NCBI RefSeq assembly: GCF_002209355.2
Contig: NZ_CP106855.1
Span: 2,728,001 to 2,792,000, forward strand
DNA length: 64,000 nt
Source: Bdellovibrio sp. SKB1291214
GTDB taxonomy: Bacteria; Bdellovibrionota; Bdellovibrionia; Bdellovibrionales; Bdellovibrionaceae
Direction: 5' to 3'
The notes beneath the pieces were generated by a model. The model searched no databases, was not told the origin of the DNA, and saw only the letters and a program-made list of their open reading frames with translations. Numbering within the stretch: position 1 is the stretch's first letter; every line of letters starts with the position of its first letter. This document shows, piece after piece, positions 29,813 through 40,064 of the stretch. A program made the position numbers and the translations under genes.

Positions 29813-30616
29813 ATGAGAATGTTTCTAAGAAACTCTATAGCTTCTTTCGTTCTGTTATTCGTGAGTTTTGCGGCCTCAGCGCAAACGATTGTGGTAAGCG
29901 ATATCGACGATACCATCCGGCCTCAATACGTGCAGGACCTTTCAGACTCGGCCAAATATGTCTTCGACAAGGACAGCTTGTTTATGGGTATGAGTGAGCT
30001 TTTGAATGTCATTGTTCAAGATAACAACGCGCGTATGTTTTATTTATCCCGTGCCCCTGAGTGGTTGATGGGCAATACGCACCGAGAAGCCCTAGAACGC
30101 GGCAAATTCCCTTATGGGGTCTATTTCCCCCGTACGGTCTATTCCAAGGATGAGCACAAGATTAAGACTCTTCAAGAAATCATCGACAAAGTGAAACCCG
30201 CCGACGTGATCTTGCTTGGGGATAACGGCGAGGTGGATGCTTCGGTTTACAACTATATCTCAAACATGTACCCGGGAATCCGTTTCCATCAGTTCATTCG
30301 TGATGCCTACAATACGCCCGCTCACGGTGGTGAGGGTTCCTCGATTTACCCTGGGCAGCAGTTCTTCGTGACGCCGATTGAGGTTGCTCTTGAGTTGCAG
30401 AGACAGGGATTTTTGAAAAATTCTTCAGTCCGTCTCTTAGTTGATTACCTTGTACCGCTAATTGTGGCAGAAAAGGGGAAACCTAAGCGAGGAGTGATGG
30501 CCTTCCCCTACTTTGTGGAATGCCGCGATTTCAACTGGTCATGGGATCAGGAGATTTCGGTCTATCCTTTGCTTGATAAACTCAAAGCGAAGATCGAAAA
30601 ACGCTGCTCGAAATAA
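29813..30616 (+). CDS. Secreted APP1/DUF2183-type HAD phosphatase
   Basis: 267 aa with a Sec signal peptide (about 1-23, ending ASAQT). The HAD-type motifs are in order: 'VSDIDDTIRPQ' (nucleophile Asp, about residue 29), 'FYLSRAPEWL' (Ser), 'DEHKIKTLQEII' (Lys) and 'LLGDNGEVDASVY' (acidic metal site). This set is typical of the APP1 phosphatidate-phosphatase catalytic domain. It would dephosphorylate a phospholipid or other phosphoester in the periplasm. ATG 29813 follows GGAGGGG; the upstream frame to 29720 runs through the leader. The stop overlaps the next ATG (TAATG). Confidence 0.85.
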   Translation: MRMFLRNSIASFVLLFVSFAASAQTIVVSDIDDTIRPQYVQDLSDSAKYVFDKDSLFMGMSELLNVIVQDNNARMFYLSRAPEWLMGNTHREALERGKFPYGVYFPRTVYSKDEHKIKTLQEIIDKVKPADVILLGDNGEVDASVYNYISNMYPGIRFHQFIRDAYNTPAHGGEGSSIYPGQQFFVTPIEVALELQRQGFLKNSSVRLLVDYLVPLIVAEKGKPKRGVMAFPYFVECRDFNWSWDQEISVYPLLDKLKAKIEKRCSK

Positions 30617-31429: not shown

Positions 31430-31867
31430 ATGTCTACAATTCAAGAACGCCAAGCCAAAATCATCTCTGACTTTTCCGCTTTCACGGATTGGGAAGATCG
31501 CTACAAGAAAATCATCGAAATGGGTAAAACTCTGCCAGCAATGCCGCAAGAGTTAAAAACTGAACAGAATATCGTTAAGGGTTGTCAGTCTCAGGTATGG
31601 CTTCACGCTGCGATGTCTGATGATGGCAAGATGATGTTGGTTGGCGATAGCGACGCATTGATCGTTAAAGGCCTTGTGGCGCTGTTGTTGAAGGTCTACT
31701 CAGGCTCAACGCCTAATGAAGTTCTAATGACGCCACCGGAGTTTTTAAGAGCTCTGGGGTTTGAGGGGAATCTATCACCAAGTCGCGCGAACGGTCTTCA
31801 CTCAATGTTAAAGCAAATCAAACTTTACGCGACGGCCTTCGACTATATGTTGAAGCTTAAAAAGTAG
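31430..31867 (+). CDS. sufE: SufE-family sulfur acceptor
   Basis: A 145-aa protein that takes persulfide sulfur from a SufS-type desulfurase and passes it on for Fe-S assembly. The acceptor cysteine is Cys52 in 'NIVKGCQSQVWL', and 'LSPSRANGL' is a family block. The length is normal and the gene is complete. No sufS, sufB, sufC or sufD is in the window. A strong terminator follows at 31907-31935. A second copy of everything from residue 35 through this terminator is present at 36204-36614. Confidence 0.93.
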   Translation: MSTIQERQAKIISDFSAFTDWEDRYKKIIEMGKTLPAMPQELKTEQNIVKGCQSQVWLHAAMSDDGKMMLVGDSDALIVKGLVALLLKVYSGSTPNEVLMTPPEFLRALGFEGNLSPSRANGLHSMLKQIKLYATAFDYMLKLKK

Positions 31868-31942
31868 TTAGCTACTTCGATACGAAATTCATCAAAGACA
31901 AAACTTCGGCTGCTTTATCAAAGCAGCCGTTTTTATTTCCAC
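31532..31942 (+). repeat. sufE-3' repeat, copy A
   Basis: The intact sufE from codon 35 to its stop plus about 75 bp of downstream sequence and terminator recur at 36204-36614. By hand alignment the shared coding part differs at about 20 of 327 positions, and only one difference changes an amino acid (Gln40 here, Glu in copy B). The non-coding part diverges more but keeps the terminator. Confidence 0.9.
31907..31935 (+). terminator. Intrinsic terminator after sufE
   Basis: Perfect 10-bp stem CGGCTGCTTT/AAAGCAGCCG with a 3-base loop, followed by TTTTTAT. Confidence 0.92.
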
Positions 31943-31947
31943 AAACC

Positions 31948-32268
31948 CTAAAGATTCAAAATTGCTTCTGCGAGTTCCATATCGGAATTTGATAATTTTG
32001 GATTTACTTTTCGAATAAGCTCAAAGGCGCGCAGTACTTTAACACCGCGAATTTGGCCTTCGGAGGCTAGGAATATAGCTGCATCATCTTTTGAATCAAT
32101 TAAGACCTTATATGCTTGTGAATTCAAACTATCTGCAGTTGTGATAAACGGTCCAGAAACTGTCAGTAGCGGTGACATTATGATTGCTGCTGAGGCCATC
32201 TTAGGATCATTCGCAAAAGAAATAGACGCCGCAAAAATGAAAGAGATCAATAAGGATAATTTTAACAT
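31948..32268 (-). CDS. Small secreted protein, unknown function
   Basis: 106 aa with a Sec signal peptide (about 1-19, ending ISFAND). The mature protein is about 87 residues without cysteine; it opens with a hydrophobic stretch 'MASAAIIMSPLLTVSGPF', then a mixed helix/strand region. GGAGAACCTC lies just before the ATG as ribosome site. I recognise no family. It lies inside the segment bounded by the two sufE copies. Confidence 0.65.
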   Translation of the reverse strand: MLKLSLLISFIFAASISFANDPKMASAAIIMSPLLTVSGPFITTADSLNSQAYKVLIDSKDDAAIFLASEGQIRGVKVLRAFELIRKVNPKLSNSDMELAEAILNL

Positions 32269-32381
32269 GAGGTTCTCCTTAAGTTTGGTTTAAACTTTAA
32301 GGCGCAACTTACAAATAAAACTAACGGAATGGCAGTTACGAATACCTACGGAAATAAATCAGTGATTACGGCAAGTTGAAT

Positions 32382-33500
32382 TTAGTTGCGGATATCCAGT
32401 GTTTCTTTCAATGAATACTTCTTTCCATCAAATACAACGAGCTCGCCTAATTTATGATTGATGCGATTTACAAGGCGATAAAATCGAGATTCAAGCACTC
32501 CGTCTTCGGCATGATCTGGCCAAAGTGATTCGCAAAGCATATTGCGATTTTTAGGACCGTTCTTAAGGATCTTTAAGAGCTGGCCTTCAAGGGAGTTAAT
32601 TTTAATTCGGCCCTTAAGTGTTCCTGATTTATCGTAAATCATTCCCGACCTAGCAATGAAGCGCCACGATTTGGACTCATTCTTTTTAAGTGAATTTCCA
32701 GAGTACTTGCGAAACCTTTTGAGCCAATATGGATTAATATTATCAAAAGCAGAAAGATCCAAATGTCTGGCAAAGATTTTACTTTGGATGTAGCTCAAAG
32801 GAAAGGCGACGCGGCTATCTACCTCCGCAGGAATTTTGGAGATAACATCCTTCGCTAACTTTATTTTACCGATCTCTATCAAACAATCTGCCAGATGAAT
32901 ATATGCTAGATGCAAATCAGAAAGAACACCCAGCTTTGCAAATAGATCTGCAGCAGCTTGCGCTTGCTTCTCTGCTTTTATGAAATTCTCGTTGTCGAAA
33001 CATATATTCGATAACTGGCGCAAGCAAAGTGCTTGCACACGTAAAACATGATGATCAAGAGCTTCCTGATGAAGCGTCTCAAAATCACCAGATAAGTCCT
33101 CTGAAGAAAGAAATGCTTTTGCCAGGATATAGTTAAATCGCGCAAGCAGCGCTTTATCGTAATTGTCATAAACGGAATGACACTCGCTAGAACTTAAAAA
33201 CTCTTTTTGCGCATTTTCAAATTCATTCTGGTGCATAAAAAACATTCCGCGAACTGAATGCACGTCACCTTTAAGGTCAGGTGAAACAATGCCGTTGCAA
33301 GAAAGAGTGGAAACATCTATCGCTTCGGAGTTGTTTTTAAGTGCCAGTCTGAAACTGAGAGCTTTTTGCTCCATCATGGTTTCAAAACTAACGGAGGCCG
33401 CAGAGCGAATAGATTTAATATAATCAAGAACAGATTGATTATGACCTGACATCATCTCGTTCAGAGCTGAGTTATAAGAGGCGCCCAATTTTAAGTTCAT
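32382..33500 (-). CDS. TPR-like regulator with C-terminal winged-helix domain
   Basis: 372 aa, cytoplasmic. Residues about 1-270 are helix pairs of TPR type ('HSVRGMFFMHQNEFENAQKE', 'LHLAYIHLADCLIEIGKIKL'). The C-terminal about 90 residues are a winged helix: 'LEGQLLKILKNGPKNRNMLC', 'ESLWPD', 'LESRFYRLVNRINHKLGELV' as recognition helix and 'VFDGKKYSL' as wing. I start at ATG 33500, which overlaps the stop of the upstream protease gene (ATGA), rather than at 33563 within it. Coupling suggests a regulator dedicated to the protease or to genes responding to it. The layout matches 18925-20019. Confidence 0.78.
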   Translation of the reverse strand: MNLKLGASYNSALNEMMSGHNQSVLDYIKSIRSAASVSFETMMEQKALSFRLALKNNSEAIDVSTLSCNGIVSPDLKGDVHSVRGMFFMHQNEFENAQKEFLSSSECHSVYDNYDKALLARFNYILAKAFLSSEDLSGDFETLHQEALDHHVLRVQALCLRQLSNICFDNENFIKAEKQAQAAADLFAKLGVLSDLHLAYIHLADCLIEIGKIKLAKDVISKIPAEVDSRVAFPLSYIQSKIFARHLDLSAFDNINPYWLKRFRKYSGNSLKKNESKSWRFIARSGMIYDKSGTLKGRIKINSLEGQLLKILKNGPKNRNMLCESLWPDHAEDGVLESRFYRLVNRINHKLGELVVFDGKKYSLKETLDIRN

Positions 33501-35539
33501 GGCGCACCCTCGTAAACTGAGAACTCGTCCAGCCACGGATCCATCTGGTGGCCTTGAAGGCAATCTTCAGAGATAGACAAGATATCAAGTCGAAATAGTC
33601 GGTCTTTGGAATCTAGATTAATTTCAGCCTTGATCTTTTCATCATTGATGTGAAGCTTCCACGGATTCGCGACAATCAGGTTGTTCTTTGAAAGATCGAT
33701 GATGCATTTACCGCCGATATTGACCTGACCCTTGAATGATTTAGCAGACTTATAATCAATGTTTAATTGAACATTGGGGAGGGAAATCAGATTCCCATCA
33801 TAGCCCATCGAGGTAAAGCCATTTTTAAATTTTAGCTTTTTTGCATCCAAGCTAATGGACATAGTCTTTAGGTCTTGATCGCACTGAATATAGTTTTTCC
33901 CAGGCTTGTCAGTCAAAGTGCCGACCGCTTTCGCCACGGCAAAGTGATGCCCTATAACCGCTTTGCTGGCGCCATCGAAATAACGGATTCTTTTATCTGC
34001 AAAAAGAGCAGAGCGACAAACAAGGGAAGCCTCTGCATTTTCCACGAAGGAAGCTCCTCTTAAGATCTCGCTTATTCTATCTGATCTTTTTTGGATTGAG
34101 CCTTTTCCGATTTCGTAATTAAGATCATTGATGTCTCCGATCTTGTGGCCAAGACCTTTTTGGTCGAAGTAGCCCACAAGTGTTTTGCCATTTAAGATCG
34201 TGACACCAGATTGCTTACAAAATTCGTTATTCTTGTAGGCCGCTGTGTAGCCATTAATTTCTTTACCGCTATCATTAAAGATATTAAACTGACTATTTCC
34301 AGGGACAAACAGAGCCCCTCCGCTTTCGCCGTAATCTCCACCACCCAGGTTCATCACATCACGGGGAGATATTTTAGGTGTGTCACCGGAAGGTGTGATC
34401 GAGCGGTTGTTCTGTTTCACAGCCTTTTCTAATAATTCAGAAAGCAAGACATCGCCTGCGCCATATTTGTAGAATTCTGTCGCTGCATCTGTCGATGTCC
34501 ATGAGCTAGATTCTTGATAGGATTTGTCACAGGAATCATAAGCGACAAATTTGGATCCATCTGCATTCTTTTGCACCAATATCGGGTGTCGATTTAGCTG
34601 ACCATTGCTTTGATAATACTCATAACTTAAAGTAGGGCGATCTCCGTCTAATAGGAAAGACTTTTTCAGAGAAACATATCCCCGTATGACGTCGTCGATG
34701 GATATCGCAAGGGATCTCATACCAACGTGATCCGTACGTGTGATCATTCCAGCAACGTAATTACCATAATTCATAGCTATATAACCTGGAACACTCGTGC
34801 CTTGTGATGGCGTTACAACTAAGGGAACGCCCGAAAGACCTGGATGAATTGCTAGAGTTTCCATCACTAACAAATCAAAAGATCCATAAGGTGCAAAGTT
34901 CTTTTTACTCGCAAATCCGGGCAGAGGTGACAAGTCAATCACGGACTGATTGCCTTCGATCATTCGCTTTGTCTCTGTTTCTGAGCCCGCGGTAATATAG
35001 GGATAAGACCATCTGTTTTTCGTAGATTTTTCGATCCATGATTTATTCATTAAGAACGAATGATCAGGATAAGCATCTTTGGGGTAATCCTTGCGATCCT
35101 TAAACACGATCAGAGGTGCCAGATGATTTGATTTCTGAAGAGTTTTAAATACGGTCCCTTGTTCCTTAAGAATCGCCAAATCCATATTTGGCGATTGGGC
35201 CGAAACCTTCGCTGGGACAATAGCATCTGCACATTGAATTAAAATTTGGGTGGCATCAGTAACAACATGGGCGGGCGTGATAACTTCAAGTTGACCTTCT
35301 GAAGATTCAACAATCCAGCCTACGCCTGCCTGATAAAAGCTTGTGCCCTGAAACTTAGTCAGAGAATGCACTGTTACCAGTATGCAGACGTCTGGGGATT
35401 TTCCCAAAAGTCCCGCGCCAATAACAGGAGTATTGGGTAATGTTTGTGCCCAAGCAGAACTGTCGAATAAACAGACAGTCATGCCTATTAATACACTGAT
35501 CATGAGTTTAAAAATGCGCTTGTTAGAGTTAAAGATCAT
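33497..35539 (-). CDS. Large secreted trypsin-like serine protease
   Basis: 680 aa with a Sec signal peptide (about 1-31, ending SAWAQ). An S1-type domain is seen in the first about 290 residues: His91 in 'VITPAHVVTDA', Asp120 in 'SPNMDLAIL' and Ser236 in 'HPGLSGVPL', followed by the usual strand 'NYVAGMITR'. The remaining about 390 residues are unrecognised and include a second serine motif-like site, 'YGESGGALF' (Ser407). The enzyme is probably exported to the periplasm or prey and may be autoprocessed. It is first in a two-gene unit with the TPR regulator. The sequence seems richer in A and T than the housekeeping operons. Confidence 0.82.
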   Translation of the reverse strand: MIFNSNKRIFKLMISVLIGMTVCLFDSSAWAQTLPNTPVIGAGLLGKSPDVCILVTVHSLTKFQGTSFYQAGVGWIVESSEGQLEVITPAHVVTDATQILIQCADAIVPAKVSAQSPNMDLAILKEQGTVFKTLQKSNHLAPLIVFKDRKDYPKDAYPDHSFLMNKSWIEKSTKNRWSYPYITAGSETETKRMIEGNQSVIDLSPLPGFASKKNFAPYGSFDLLVMETLAIHPGLSGVPLVVTPSQGTSVPGYIAMNYGNYVAGMITRTDHVGMRSLAISIDDVIRGYVSLKKSFLLDGDRPTLSYEYYQSNGQLNRHPILVQKNADGSKFVAYDSCDKSYQESSSWTSTDAATEFYKYGAGDVLLSELLEKAVKQNNRSITPSGDTPKISPRDVMNLGGGDYGESGGALFVPGNSQFNIFNDSGKEINGYTAAYKNNEFCKQSGVTILNGKTLVGYFDQKGLGHKIGDINDLNYEIGKGSIQKRSDRISEILRGASFVENAEASLVCRSALFADKRIRYFDGASKAVIGHHFAVAKAVGTLTDKPGKNYIQCDQDLKTMSISLDAKKLKFKNGFTSMGYDGNLISLPNVQLNIDYKSAKSFKGQVNIGGKCIIDLSKNNLIVANPWKLHINDEKIKAEINLDSKDRLFRLDILSISEDCLQGHQMDPWLDEFSVYEGAP

Positions 35540-35695
35540 GGGCGCTAGTTAGCAATTCCGATGCCAGTAAATTCTTATATAATTTACAAATATATGTAAC
35601 CACTGGGCTTTCTTCGTATGTATTCGTCCCTACTTTTACTTCTCTTTCGGTCGTAATTTGTGCGTGCTACATTCACTCAAACAAAAGGAAATGCT

Positions 35696-36136
35696 ATGAA
35701 GAAGTTCTTTATTTTAAAAACATTTATCTCGGGTTTTTTGTCTCTGTCACTTTTTTCAAGTGTGGCATTGGCTGAAACTAAAATGAAAATTAAAACTCCC
35801 GCAGCCGATGCGAAAAAACTAACGTTTTGTTTTAGTAAATACGAACCAGGTCCTGTTGTTAATTTCGTAAACGATAAAATGATCAAAATTATTTACGGCG
35901 ACACGAAAGCTGATTTGAAAGTTCTTTCGAAAAAAACTCGAACAAGTACGCCTGAAGTAGGAATCAAAGTCGATATCGTAGAATATAAAGTTCTTGATCT
36001 TGCAGAAAAAGTTAAGTGGCTTATGAAAATCAGCTCGTACAAGCAAGACAAGCAGCTCTTCATTACCATTTTCGGTGAACAACAATTCTTTGGAAGTCTT
36101 TCAGGCTGCTCATCCCTAACGAGAATCGACGAATAG
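35696..36136 (+). CDS. Small secreted protein, unknown function
   Basis: 146 aa with a Sec signal peptide (about 1-27, 'SLFSSVALAETK'). The mature part is lysine-rich with mostly strand pattern and two cysteines (in 'LTFCFSKYE' and 'SLSGCSSLTR') far apart, perhaps one disulfide linking both ends of a small beta fold. AAAAGGAAA precedes ATG 35696; the frame open back to 35660 has no better start. The broken ORF at 36146 follows after 9 bases, so both were probably one operon. Confidence 0.7.
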   Translation: MKKFFILKTFISGFLSLSLFSSVALAETKMKIKTPAADAKKLTFCFSKYEPGPVVNFVNDKMIKIIYGDTKADLKVLSKKTRTSTPEVGIKVDIVEYKVLDLAEKVKWLMKISSYKQDKQLFITIFGEQQFFGSLSGCSSLTRIDE

Positions 36137-36145
36137 GTGAGTGCC

Positions 36146-36235
36146 ATGAAATTAAATCTTCTGGCTTGTCTTTCAGCTGTATTTCTTGCCGGGCCAGATG
36201 CTGCTGCCAGCAATGCCGGAAGAGTTAAAAACTGA
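36146..36235 (+). pseudogene. Truncated secreted-protein gene joined to sufE repeat
   Basis: An ATG with a good ribosome site (AGGTGAG) opens a 29-codon frame that begins with a convincing signal peptide ('MKLNLLACLSAVFLAGPDAA') and then runs, out of frame, into the copied sufE sequence and stops. It looks like the 5' end of a secreted-protein gene cut at the recombination junction near 36204. What the full gene encoded is unknown. Confidence 0.6.
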
Positions 36236-36539
36236 ACAGAATATCGTTAAGGGTTGTCAGTCTCAGGTATGGCTTCACGCTGCGATGTCTGACGATGGCA
36301 AGATGATGTTGGTTGGCGATAGCGACGCATTGATTGTTAAAGGCCTTGTGGCGCTGTTGTTAAAGGTCTACTCAGGCTCAACGCCTAATGAGGTTTTGAT
36401 GACGCCGCCGGAGTTTTTAAGAGCTCTAGGCTTTGAGGGGAATTTGTCGCCAAGTCGCGCGAATGGTCTTCACTCGATGTTAAAGCAAATCAAACTCTAC
36501 GCGACGGCTTTTGATTATATGTTGAAGCTTAAGAAGTAG
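36204..36539 (+). pseudogene. 5'-truncated second copy of sufE
   Basis: The frame matches sufE from Leu35 to the stop, with one amino-acid change (Gln to Glu), and keeps the acceptor cysteine in 'IVKGCQSQVW'. The first 34 residues are missing. In-frame ATGs at 36198 and 36213 lack a ribosome site, so it is probably not translated well. Because nearly all of the about 20 differences from the intact copy are silent, this copy was a working gene for most of its separate history. Confidence 0.85.
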
Positions 36540-36576
36540 TTAGTTACTTCGATACAAAGTTCATTAAAAAACAGTA

Positions 36577-36604
36577 CGGCTGCTCTCTCAAAGCGGCCGT
36601 TTTT
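36577..36604 (+). terminator. Intrinsic terminator, copy B
   Basis: CGGCTGCT...AAAGCGGCCG with a T run; the counterpart of the sufE terminator at 31907-31935. One arm change turns an A-T pair into a tolerated G-T pair. Confidence 0.85.
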
Positions 36605-36614
36605 GCTTCCACCG

Positions 36615-36992: not shown

Positions 36993-38825
36993 ATGAAAAG
37001 AAGACAAGTTTTGCAATCCGCTGCCTCCTCTTTTGTCGCTGCTCTTTCTGTCGGTGCTATTTCCAACCGTGCGGAAGCAGCTGCTTTGCCAGCAAGTTAT
37101 GCCCAGGGGGATATCGGGTCTGTCATTGAGTTGCGTTCTACACGCCCTTCTGTTAATGGCGCTAAGATGACAGTAAGAAGTTACCATTCAGGTCTTAACG
37201 TTGGTGGTGGCGACTTTATCGGTTACTTGTCGAGTGGAACAGATGATGGCGGGACTGTCTTTGCCGGCAATGGTTACCATTGGCGTCGCGTGATCACTGA
37301 TCCCAACAGTCTGACAATAGTTGATTTCGGTGCTAAACCCGACGGTAAAACGGATTCAGCAGCTGCGATGAAAGCGATGTTTGCTTGGTCGCAAGCGAAC
37401 TATCCGACCATTGGTATTCAGTTACCTGGGGGTAAATTCTTCGTATCTCAGGTGGATATGGGAACGGCCGAGTTGCCATTCTTCCGTGTTGCGGGGGGGG
37501 CGGTAAATTTCGGTTACTTCCCGTCGACTAATTTGGTCTCGGATGGGCAGAAAAGTCCTTTGTTTAAAGTAGTTGCACGCAGAGCCGAGATTTCAAATCT
37601 GGTCTTTAATGGACAGACTAATGTAAAAACAAATTACCAAGGGTTCTTTACGAATACTTGTACTGGCGGTCAGTTTTTCCGCGGGGCATGTTTACGCTTT
37701 CAATATGTCGGTGGTGCTTCTTTAAGTCTTTTAGACACACTAGATTGCAAAATTGACCAATTTTATGCCAATAACTGTACGAATGATATTGTTAGAGCTG
37801 GTTGGTCTGGTAGAGCAGCCGGAGTTTGGGATCACAGCACGGCGATTGAGCTTTCCAACTTCAATATTCAAAATTGTAAAAGCGGAAAAGTATTTAACTT
37901 GCCTCGCTGTACTCAGTCGATCATGCATAACGGGTGGATCGAGCACTGTACTAATCCAGGAGATATCTCTAACGGACAATGGATTCTCGATGCATTAAGT
38001 CTTGAAGACTGTACGAACCCGTTGAACGCGCGTTACTCTCGCTTGAATCAGCGTCAGACTAATTTGCAATCTGGAAGCTCGATTGACAATTCAAACACCG
38101 GCACAGACCCTAGCCGCTGGCTGAGTGCATGGGAGATGGGTTCAACGAGAATTGAGTCCTTTGGTTCCGACCTTGGCGGCAGTTTGAGATACGGTCACAT
38201 CAATTCGCAGTACAGGCTGAGCAACAATGTCGGTACGGCGGAATGGTTTGAGTTAGGCAATTTCTTTACTCCTACTATGGGGGACAACTGGGAAATCGAA
38301 TTATTTGGTCAAACACAGTATAATGCCGGTAGCACTAATCAGCCTTTAACGAATCTGATTAGCGGGAAAACCACTGGGGGAAAAGCTACAATTCATTTGC
38401 AACGCAAAGGGGATAACAAGGCTGAAGCGACTTGGTTTGGAGAAGGCAGTTGTCCTGTGTTAGCTGTGCGAATTGAGCCACGGTCCGCTACAGATACTAA
38501 AGTATTCGTTAAGATTAATAACTGGACGCCAACGATTATCGTACTTTTGAAAAGTAACGGTAAGGATCGCTTTCTGGCAGGGCAGTGCTTACGTTTCGAC
38601 CCCGTGATGGAGAAGGGAGCACCAGGTAGTGCCACTGAAAATGCTCCAGCGCGCTTCAGTCTGCACAATGGACAAGCCGGAATCGGTGGTAATGAGGAGG
38701 GTGACTTGTTGCTTGCTACACGACTTGTAGCCGCTTCTTCCGTCGACACTTCAAAAGCCAAAGGTTATATCCATGTGGTGATTAACGGTGAAACGGTTGC
38801 AATGCCGTATTTTAATATCAAGTAA
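36993..38825 (+). CDS. Tat-exported tailspike-like polysaccharide depolymerase candidate
   Basis: 610 aa. The N-terminus 'MKRRQVLQSAASSF' with a mild hydrophobic stretch to 'NRAEAAALP' looks like a twin-arginine signal. Next is a region (about 45-105) with the pattern of phage tailspike head-proximal domains: 'VRSYHSGLNVGGGDFIGYL', 'TDDGGTVFAGNGYHWRRV'. It is followed by the pectate-lyase-3/beta-helix entry 'VDFGAKPDGKTDSAAAMKAM' and a long strand-rich region typical of right-handed beta-helices, with a distinct C-terminal module (about 440-610). Probable role: binding or cutting a surface polysaccharide. RBS AAAGGA lies upstream and a strong terminator follows. Catalytic residues cannot be assigned by eye. 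Confidence 0.75.
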   Translation: MKRRQVLQSAASSFVAALSVGAISNRAEAAALPASYAQGDIGSVIELRSTRPSVNGAKMTVRSYHSGLNVGGGDFIGYLSSGTDDGGTVFAGNGYHWRRVITDPNSLTIVDFGAKPDGKTDSAAAMKAMFAWSQANYPTIGIQLPGGKFFVSQVDMGTAELPFFRVAGGAVNFGYFPSTNLVSDGQKSPLFKVVARRAEISNLVFNGQTNVKTNYQGFFTNTCTGGQFFRGACLRFQYVGGASLSLLDTLDCKIDQFYANNCTNDIVRAGWSGRAAGVWDHSTAIELSNFNIQNCKSGKVFNLPRCTQSIMHNGWIEHCTNPGDISNGQWILDALSLEDCTNPLNARYSRLNQRQTNLQSGSSIDNSNTGTDPSRWLSAWEMGSTRIESFGSDLGGSLRYGHINSQYRLSNNVGTAEWFELGNFFTPTMGDNWEIELFGQTQYNAGSTNQPLTNLISGKTTGGKATIHLQRKGDNKAEATWFGEGSCPVLAVRIEPRSATDTKVFVKINNWTPTIIVLLKSNGKDRFLAGQCLRFDPVMEKGAPGSATENAPARFSLHNGQAGIGGNEEGDLLLATRLVAASSVDTSKAKGYIHVVINGETVAMPYFNIK

Positions 38826-38847
38826 TCGGGTATTAGTCGCTACAAAT

Positions 38848-38882
38848 AAAAAAAGGCAGGAGATGTGATCCTGCCTTTTTTC
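38848..38882. terminator. Strong bidirectional terminator
   Basis: AAAAAAGGCAGGA and TCCTGCCTTTTTT form a 13-bp perfect stem with a 7-base loop. It serves the tailspike-like gene and, on the other strand, the small secreted-protein gene at 38903. Confidence 0.93.
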
Positions 38883-38902
38883 TTTTCTCGTTCGGAAAGA
38901 AG

Positions 38903-39169
38903 CTATTTTTTCTTTTCTTCTTTTTTCATTTTGCAAGCTTCGATATCAGAAGTAGCAACAGTTACGCCAGCAACTGATTTGCCTTCCATCACTGGATCAA
39001 CACAGTCTTTCCAAAGACCTTTTTTATCTTTGTGAGCTCCTTGTTTAAAGCCCGCAGCTTCGCAAGCCGCTTTTACTTTTGCACAAGGATGATCTTTGCC
39101 ACCGTGACCATCGTTCGCGAATGCAGAAACAGAACCCATAAGTACAAGAGCCATAACTAGAGATTTCAT
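38903..39169 (-). CDS. Small cysteine-containing secreted protein
   Basis: 88 aa with a Sec signal peptide (about 1-19, 'ALVLMGSVSAFAND'). The mature part is about 69 residues, with cysteines in 'DHPCAKVKAACEAAGF', 'LWKDCVDP' and 'IEACKMKKEEKKK', so two disulfides or a metal site are possible. AGGAGG lies 5 bases before the ATG, which decides this start over the longer frame to 39298. The function is unknown. Confidence 0.75.
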   Translation of the reverse strand: MKSLVMALVLMGSVSAFANDGHGGKDHPCAKVKAACEAAGFKQGAHKDKKGLWKDCVDPVMEGKSVAGVTVATSDIEACKMKKEEKKK

Positions 39170-39244
39170 GATTCCTCCTGGAAATCTTTGTTGATTTAAT
39201 GCTACCGAATTAATCGCACTTCGTGTGACGAAGTATCCCATAAT

Positions 39245-39273
39245 AAAAAACCGGAAGATCGCTCTTCCGGTTT
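39245..39273 (-). terminator. Intrinsic terminator after yebC
   Basis: An 11-bp perfect stem AAACCGGAAGA/TCTTCCGGTTT with a 4-base loop; on the minus strand it is followed by a T run. Confidence 0.9.
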
Positions 39274-39298
39274 GGTGGTTTCGGTCGTGTAAAAACAA

Positions 39299-40000
39299 CT
39301 AGATAGTTGCATGCACTCTATGAGTGTCATCCATATCATCTAGGTAGTTCAAAAATTTTTCAACGTCTTTTCTTTGCTCATCAGAAAGTTCCGTGATGTT
39401 TTTCGCTTTGTATGAAAGCTCGGCCTTCGTCACTTTCCAGCCACGTTTTGTCAATGCATCACGAACCGCATCTAGATCTGTGGAACCTGTGAAGAACTCG
39501 TAAGAGCCATCATCATTTTTTGAAACTTCGTTGGCACCTGCTTCGATGGCTTCTTCGTCTGGATCGAATGTTCCGGGTTTAGTACCTTCTAACAAACCTA
39601 CGTGATCAAACATCCAAGCAACGGAGCCTGTTTCACCCATATTGCCTTCATGAGATTTGAAAGCATGGCGCATATCTGGAGCTGTTCTGTGTTTGTTGTC
39701 TGTTTGGCATTCGACGATGACGCCAACACCGTGGGGGCCGTAACCTTCGTACATCAACTCTTCGATCACTTTACCGTCATCAAGAAGTCCTGCACCCTTT
39801 TTGATCGCGCGATCAATCGTATCGTTCGGGCATGATTCTTTTTTAGCGGCTTCAATCGCCATACGAAGACGTGCGTTTGCTGCCGGATCAGGGCCTCCCA
39901 CTTTCGCCGCGACTTGAATCTCGCGCGCGAGCTTTGTGAATATTTGACCCTTTTGTTGGGCTTTCTCTACTTTACCTGCGTTTTTCCATGATTTTCCCAT
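39299..40000 (-). CDS. yebC: YebC/PmpR-family protein
   Basis: 233 aa. 'MGKSWKNAGKVEKAQQKG' is a variant of the family opening, followed by 'FTKLAREIQVAAK', 'ARLRMAIEAAKKESCPNDTI' and 'YEGYGPHGVGVIVECQTDNK', which define the family. Members act as DNA-binding regulators in some species, and more recent work ties the family to relieving ribosome stalling; either role fits. It is a single gene with its own terminator, divergent from the DUF455 gene. Confidence 0.95.
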   Translation of the reverse strand: MGKSWKNAGKVEKAQQKGQIFTKLAREIQVAAKVGGPDPAANARLRMAIEAAKKESCPNDTIDRAIKKGAGLLDDGKVIEELMYEGYGPHGVGVIVECQTDNKHRTAPDMRHAFKSHEGNMGETGSVAWMFDHVGLLEGTKPGTFDPDEEAIEAGANEVSKNDDGSYEFFTGSTDLDAVRDALTKRGWKVTKAELSYKAKNITELSDEQRKDVEKFLNYLDDMDDTHRVHATI

Positions 40001-40064
40001 AACGGAATTTCACCAAATCACGAAGTATTTGGCAAGTGGAGGAGCTGCATGTAAAACGCTTCCT

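Follow-up and report, generated by a model that had tools for sequence, protein, structure and literature searches.

In the window, the whole stretch of 64,000 nucleotides of Bdellovibrio sp. SKB1291214 that was analysed, an intact sufE gene (copy A) is separated by a block of cargo genes from the 5'-truncated 3' end of a second sufE allele (copy B). The arrangement is best read, with a probability of roughly 0.75, as cargo of a sister lineage that was joined by a homologous crossover at sufE on one side and by an illegitimate junction at 36203/36204 on the other. This reading starts from five direct observations: there are two alleles, the truncated one diverged by silent changes only, the junction is private to this genome, a cargo gene is cut at it, and the site is variable among relatives. 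The features are as follows.

31430-31867, + strand: sufE copy A, intact (145 aa); Pfam SufE, E 9e-47
31532-31942, + strand: left direct repeat, comprising sufE codons 35-145, 3'UTR and terminator; from repeat comparison and folding
31948-32268, - strand: cargo 1, small secreted DUF2388 protein; PF09498, E 2e-18
32382-33500, - strand: cargo 1, TPR protein, putative regulator; sub-threshold TPR matches
33497-35539, - strand: cargo 1, exported trypsin-like serine protease; weak Trypsin_2 and DegP matches
35696-36136, + strand: cargo 1, small secreted protein of no family; no Pfam match
36146-36235, + strand: cargo 1, 5' end of a secreted-protein gene, with signal peptide MKLNLLACLSAVFLAGPDAAAS; from translation
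36203/36204, no strand: proposed illegitimate junction between the cut gene and sufE codon 35; inter-repeat identity begins here
36204-36612, + strand: right direct repeat, sufE copy B, 5'-truncated, with its own terminator
36993-38825, + strand: cargo 2, secreted beta-helix-type protein like phage EPS depolymerases; PHROG 4250, E 5e-197
38844-39298, - strand: right border, with a terminator and a small conserved gene ahead of yebC; 38844-39205 aligns to G022 directly behind its sufE stop, so that the empty site of G022 rejoins here
39299-40021, - strand: yebC, conserved right flank

Copy B starts at sufE codon 35 and retains its stop codon and terminator. Positions 31532-31831 and 36204-36503 form a direct repeat with 95% identity and a spacing of 4,672 bp, in agreement with the preliminary description, which had placed an intact and a truncated sufE, both with a terminator, about 4.67 kb apart. 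The terminators (31900-31942 and 36570-36612, listed as a separate repeat family with a 2-nt shift) can both be folded into a hairpin followed by a T-run, with z values of -5.5 and -3.8. The homology has an abrupt left limit at 31532/36204 and ends on the right just past the terminator. It includes a 78-nt tail beyond the stop codon, which can be aligned between A and B and was recognisable in none of the relatives compared, being common to the two copies only. As a search of the whole genome returned exactly these two places, the repeat is not a chance match. In each of the 20 congeners covered by the regional comparison, copy A has an ortholog in a matching neighbourhood. A second sufE copy is absent from the 23 other congeners, so that one of the 24 genomes of the genus has one. 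Across the order, among 128 genomes with a sufE match, two others gave a double match and neither has a second copy: one of the double matches comes from a fragment at the end of a contig, the other from a single gene split into two matches.

Codon comparison of A and B over the 333 shared coding bases gave 20 differences, 19 of them synonymous, so that the earlier hand count was right. The sole replacement, at 31547 (Q in A, E in B), is derived in A, the ancestral base being kept by near relatives. When the changes were polarised by three near relatives, nine fell on A, nine on B and two were ambiguous. All nine changes on B are silent; were B dead, the probability of seeing no replacement would be 1e-6 to 3e-5, depending on the transition bias. 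From the counts of synonymous and replacement sites, about 28 replacements are expected in a copy dead for the whole separation. The silent-only pattern therefore indicates that B was a working gene while it diverged and lost its 5' part late, and the proposal that both copies spent their separate history as working genes is borne out. Assuming neutrality after truncation, a B that is dead now would have been dead during no more than about 11% of the time since A and B separated.

In the sufE tree, A and B are sisters with a support of 100/96. The path between them is 0.054, versus 0.078 between G012 and G022, two neighbouring species of the set, and 0.19 between A and G011. Differences per site are 0.060 overall and 0.15 at third positions between A and B; the corresponding values over sufE are 0.067 and 0.18 between G012 and G022. 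The A-B divergence is of about the order of that between these two species, and two sister-level lineages therefore appear to have met. The genome set is without a second genome of this species or of a sister species, and neither parental arrangement was seen in it. For want of a conspecific genome, the sisterhood of A and B cannot tell import from a sister lineage from an old duplication; the silent-only pattern together with the private junction can. The preliminary description had held that a simple old duplication would be the better reading if the copies were each other's closest relatives and the same junction occurred in all relatives. The copies are each other's closest relatives, and the junction was found in this genome only.

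Almost all of cargo 1 is absent from congeners or represented there only distantly, and the segment is private to this genome. Its G+C content, a check proposed at the outset, is 0.406 versus 0.44-0.45 for the flanks, and its GC3 is also lower. Paralogs of the DUF2388 protein are scattered in 12 of the 24 genus genomes. The TPR and protease genes overlap by 4 nt. The C-terminal region of the TPR protein is predicted, by eye, to be winged-helix-like; relatives of this protein occur in 5 other genomes of 141 and are adjacent to a protease gene in G010 and G035. In the protease, His91, Asp120 and Ser236 lie in motifs kept by distant homologs, as judged from motif positions and alignment. Its relatives are distant and occur in only 3 other genomes of the 141; comparison with plasmids gave no match, and comparison with solved structures gave only a weak DegP-like one. 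The order of the protease/TPR pair (32382-35539) is kept at unrelated sites in a few distant genomes (L134, L135, L168, L169, L172, L173). The pair seems to travel as a unit, and its recurrence in G010, G035 and probably G115 suggests a co-transferred two-gene unit. The small secreted protein at 35696-36136 is absent from the 23 congeners. The gene that starts at 36146 is broken after its signal peptide at the junction and enters sufE out of frame; neither this stretch nor an uncut parent gene has a copy in the 23 congeners. Neither an integrase or transposase nor phage genes could be recognised among the cargo genes of the segment, and no defence-system family was matched in the cargo.

The cargo 2 protein is 39-43% identical to its best matches among Xanthomonas and Erwinia phage proteins, which are tail spikes. 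This genome has one further paralog of it, at another site. The counterparts in G011, G012 and G022 also lie elsewhere, and the gene syntenic with them in this genome is at about 2.14 Mb. The gene after copy B is therefore also a newcomer at sufE, and each sufE tail is thus trailed by its own cargo. Capsules of prey, or biofilm, may be the target of the depolymerase-like protein. Among viral contigs, one partial relative of this protein was found, and no relative of sufE.

The site itself is variable. The left neighbour of sufE is the same gene (that at 30616) in all 20 congeners compared, and yebC lies on the right in most. Between sufE and yebC there are 669 bp in G022, 2,058 in G012, 2,870 in G011, 838 in G010 and 7,432 in the window, and the genes they contain are mostly unrelated. 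Gene content beside sufE, which was to be compared across strains, thus proved to turn over among close relatives. The site is empty in G022, where the terminator that the window has at 38844 follows directly on the sufE stop. In G012, the sister of G022, the interval is occupied by 1.45 kb of other genes. The inserts of the relatives contain no sufE repeat, and no displaced sufE end exists in the 23 other congeners. The lengths of about 43 intervals between neighbouring core genes were compared between the window and G011, G012 and G022. With the 7.4 kb of the window included, sufE-yebC ranged most widely in length, and four other intervals also varied by more than 1 kb. The interval is a variable site, though not a unique one, and the suggestion of a hot spot at sufE holds to that extent. 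In the empty site of G022, a unit of about 65 nt (AAAAGGTACGGACACACTTTCTCC...) recurs in tandem, almost without change, between the small gene and yebC (L114), and resembles a small dispersed repeat. In G009, a string of small phage-like genes, possibly a prophage, lies 2.4-8 kb past sufE (L130).

Gene-by-gene distances, from which rows near 0.7 were left out as frame errors of the quick alignment, place most core genes here nearer to G012, and the CxxCC gene and sufE slightly nearer to G011. They hint at a mixed ancestry. As a means of identifying the donor, the G011 and G012 distances gave a mixed signal and name none. The literature on recombination in Bdellovibrio yielded nothing on this locus.

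The arrangement probably arose as follows. Two lineages about as far apart as sister species would each have carried sufE with its own terminator and a different cargo. A fragment or a circle from one would have entered the chromosome of the other, with one homologous crossover within or just upstream of sufE. At the second end, an illegitimate join, non-homologous or by microhomology, would have linked the secreted-protein gene to sufE codon 35. The product would be a working sufE, then the DUF2388, TPR, protease and secreted-protein cargo, then the second allele reduced to its displaced 3' end, which keeps its terminator and is followed by the depolymerase-like gene. One end of the segment does lie within homologous sequence, the second sufE allele, a repeat diverged by 6%. 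That the right junction is illegitimate is indicated best by the gene at 36146, which is broken there. We infer a sister-lineage donor and a single event, by homology-facilitated illegitimate recombination or by integration of a circle; linear DNA and a circle carrying a sufE tail yield the same map. Genes for a ComEC-type channel and for DprA are present in the genome, which would be compatible with DNA uptake, and an E. coli control scores for both families too.

The preliminary description had proposed that DNA of a related strain recombined at sufE, bringing the left copy and the segment and leaving B as the native remnant. Import is well supported and one end is homologous. Recombination at sufE is not sufficient as the sole step, one illegitimate junction being needed as well, and the proposed assignment of donor and native parts is no likelier than its reverse, since the gene behind B is likewise new to the site; either copy may be the donor part. 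The longest run of identity between the repeats, 73 nt at 31548-31620, is near their 5' ends. The model predicts that RecA could use this perfect match to excise the cargo, with a single intact sufE remaining.

Of the 20 differences between A and B, only one falls within the first 89 nt of the repeat (P 0.0003-0.09 according to the yardstick used), a hint of something that the simplest version of the preferred explanation does not predict. This near-identity may be a conversion tract at the crossover, or an att-like core. Phages 21 and e14 integrate at icd, where the 3' end of the gene is replaced and the old end displaced. By analogy, an element whose attachment site was a substitute sufE 3' end could have been inserted by an integrase, since lost or acting in trans, with sufE rebuilt and its old 3' end displaced. 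The anatomy matches, with an intact gene, cargo and a silently differing displaced 3' end, and the near-identity is clustered where an att core would be expected. This route is unlikely, as no integrase is found among the cargo genes, no other genome of the genus has a displaced sufE end, and the inserts of relatives at the site are without a sufE repeat. We would regard as a long shot the broader idea that the sufE 3' end is a reusable exchange handle in this Bdellovibrio clade, whereby cargo with a sufE tail and terminator would enter by a crossover in sufE, stack before older cargo and be able to loop out, the tails being att-like and served by RecA without an integrase.

Slightly less credit still is due to an old duplication, in which the sufE 3' end was copied with the segment within one lineage and then drifted. 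It would explain why A and B are mutual closest known relatives and why their terminator is common to them alone, but the truncated copy should then carry the expected replacements where B has 0, and the arrangement is in no relative. Copy B could also be a functional shortened SufE under selection: an open frame of 113 aa runs from an in-frame ATG at 36198, the catalytic-cysteine loop (KGCQSQ) and the terminator are kept, B has no replacement and it still matches Pfam SufE at 3e-36. The product would be without the first 34 residues, however, no clear ribosome-binding site was seen upstream of this ATG, and such a gene is found in no relative. Late truncation is the simpler account of the silent-only pattern, and a functional B is the least probable of these readings.

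Import from a sister lineage through sufE, the preferred reading, has precedents. As with phages 21 and e14 at icd, an intact gene with a replaced 3' end is accompanied by the displaced old end; unlike them, the sufE segment has no integrase or phage genes. In the arrays of orphan immunity genes of Vibrio type VI secretion systems (T6SS), displaced 3' remnants result from homology-facilitated illegitimate recombination (PMC5361080). Here as there, the 5' anchor is constant, a new module comes in and the old 3' part is pushed downstream, and the copies are alleles of different strains, not duplicates. In Vibrio, however, a useful immunity gene is what gets displaced, and arrays are frequent, whereas at sufE a single case is seen, and the piece pushed aside is a housekeeping gene's end, for which no fitness role is claimed. 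Gene-exchange hotspots without mobile elements and flanked by core genes have been described (PMC5635113). At the sufE site, too, two conserved core genes enclose cargo that is unrelated from genome to genome, and no integrase or transposase is recognised in the segment; the comparison here is of a few genomes of different species, not of a population. Short accessory segments swapped at one locus are also a trait of small variable segments (PMC2884548), where replacement is typical; here both alleles and both cargos are retained in tandem. The sufE case is a fresh, clean example of a known process and no new system, and it leaves the understanding of such exchange unchanged. It is a legible trace of genes having been exchanged between closely related predatory bacteria, in which the two alleles point to lineages about a sister-species distance apart that met, and the silent-only changes to a recent join. 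The sufE-yebC interval is a place to seek strain-specific secreted proteases and depolymerases in Bdellovibrio.
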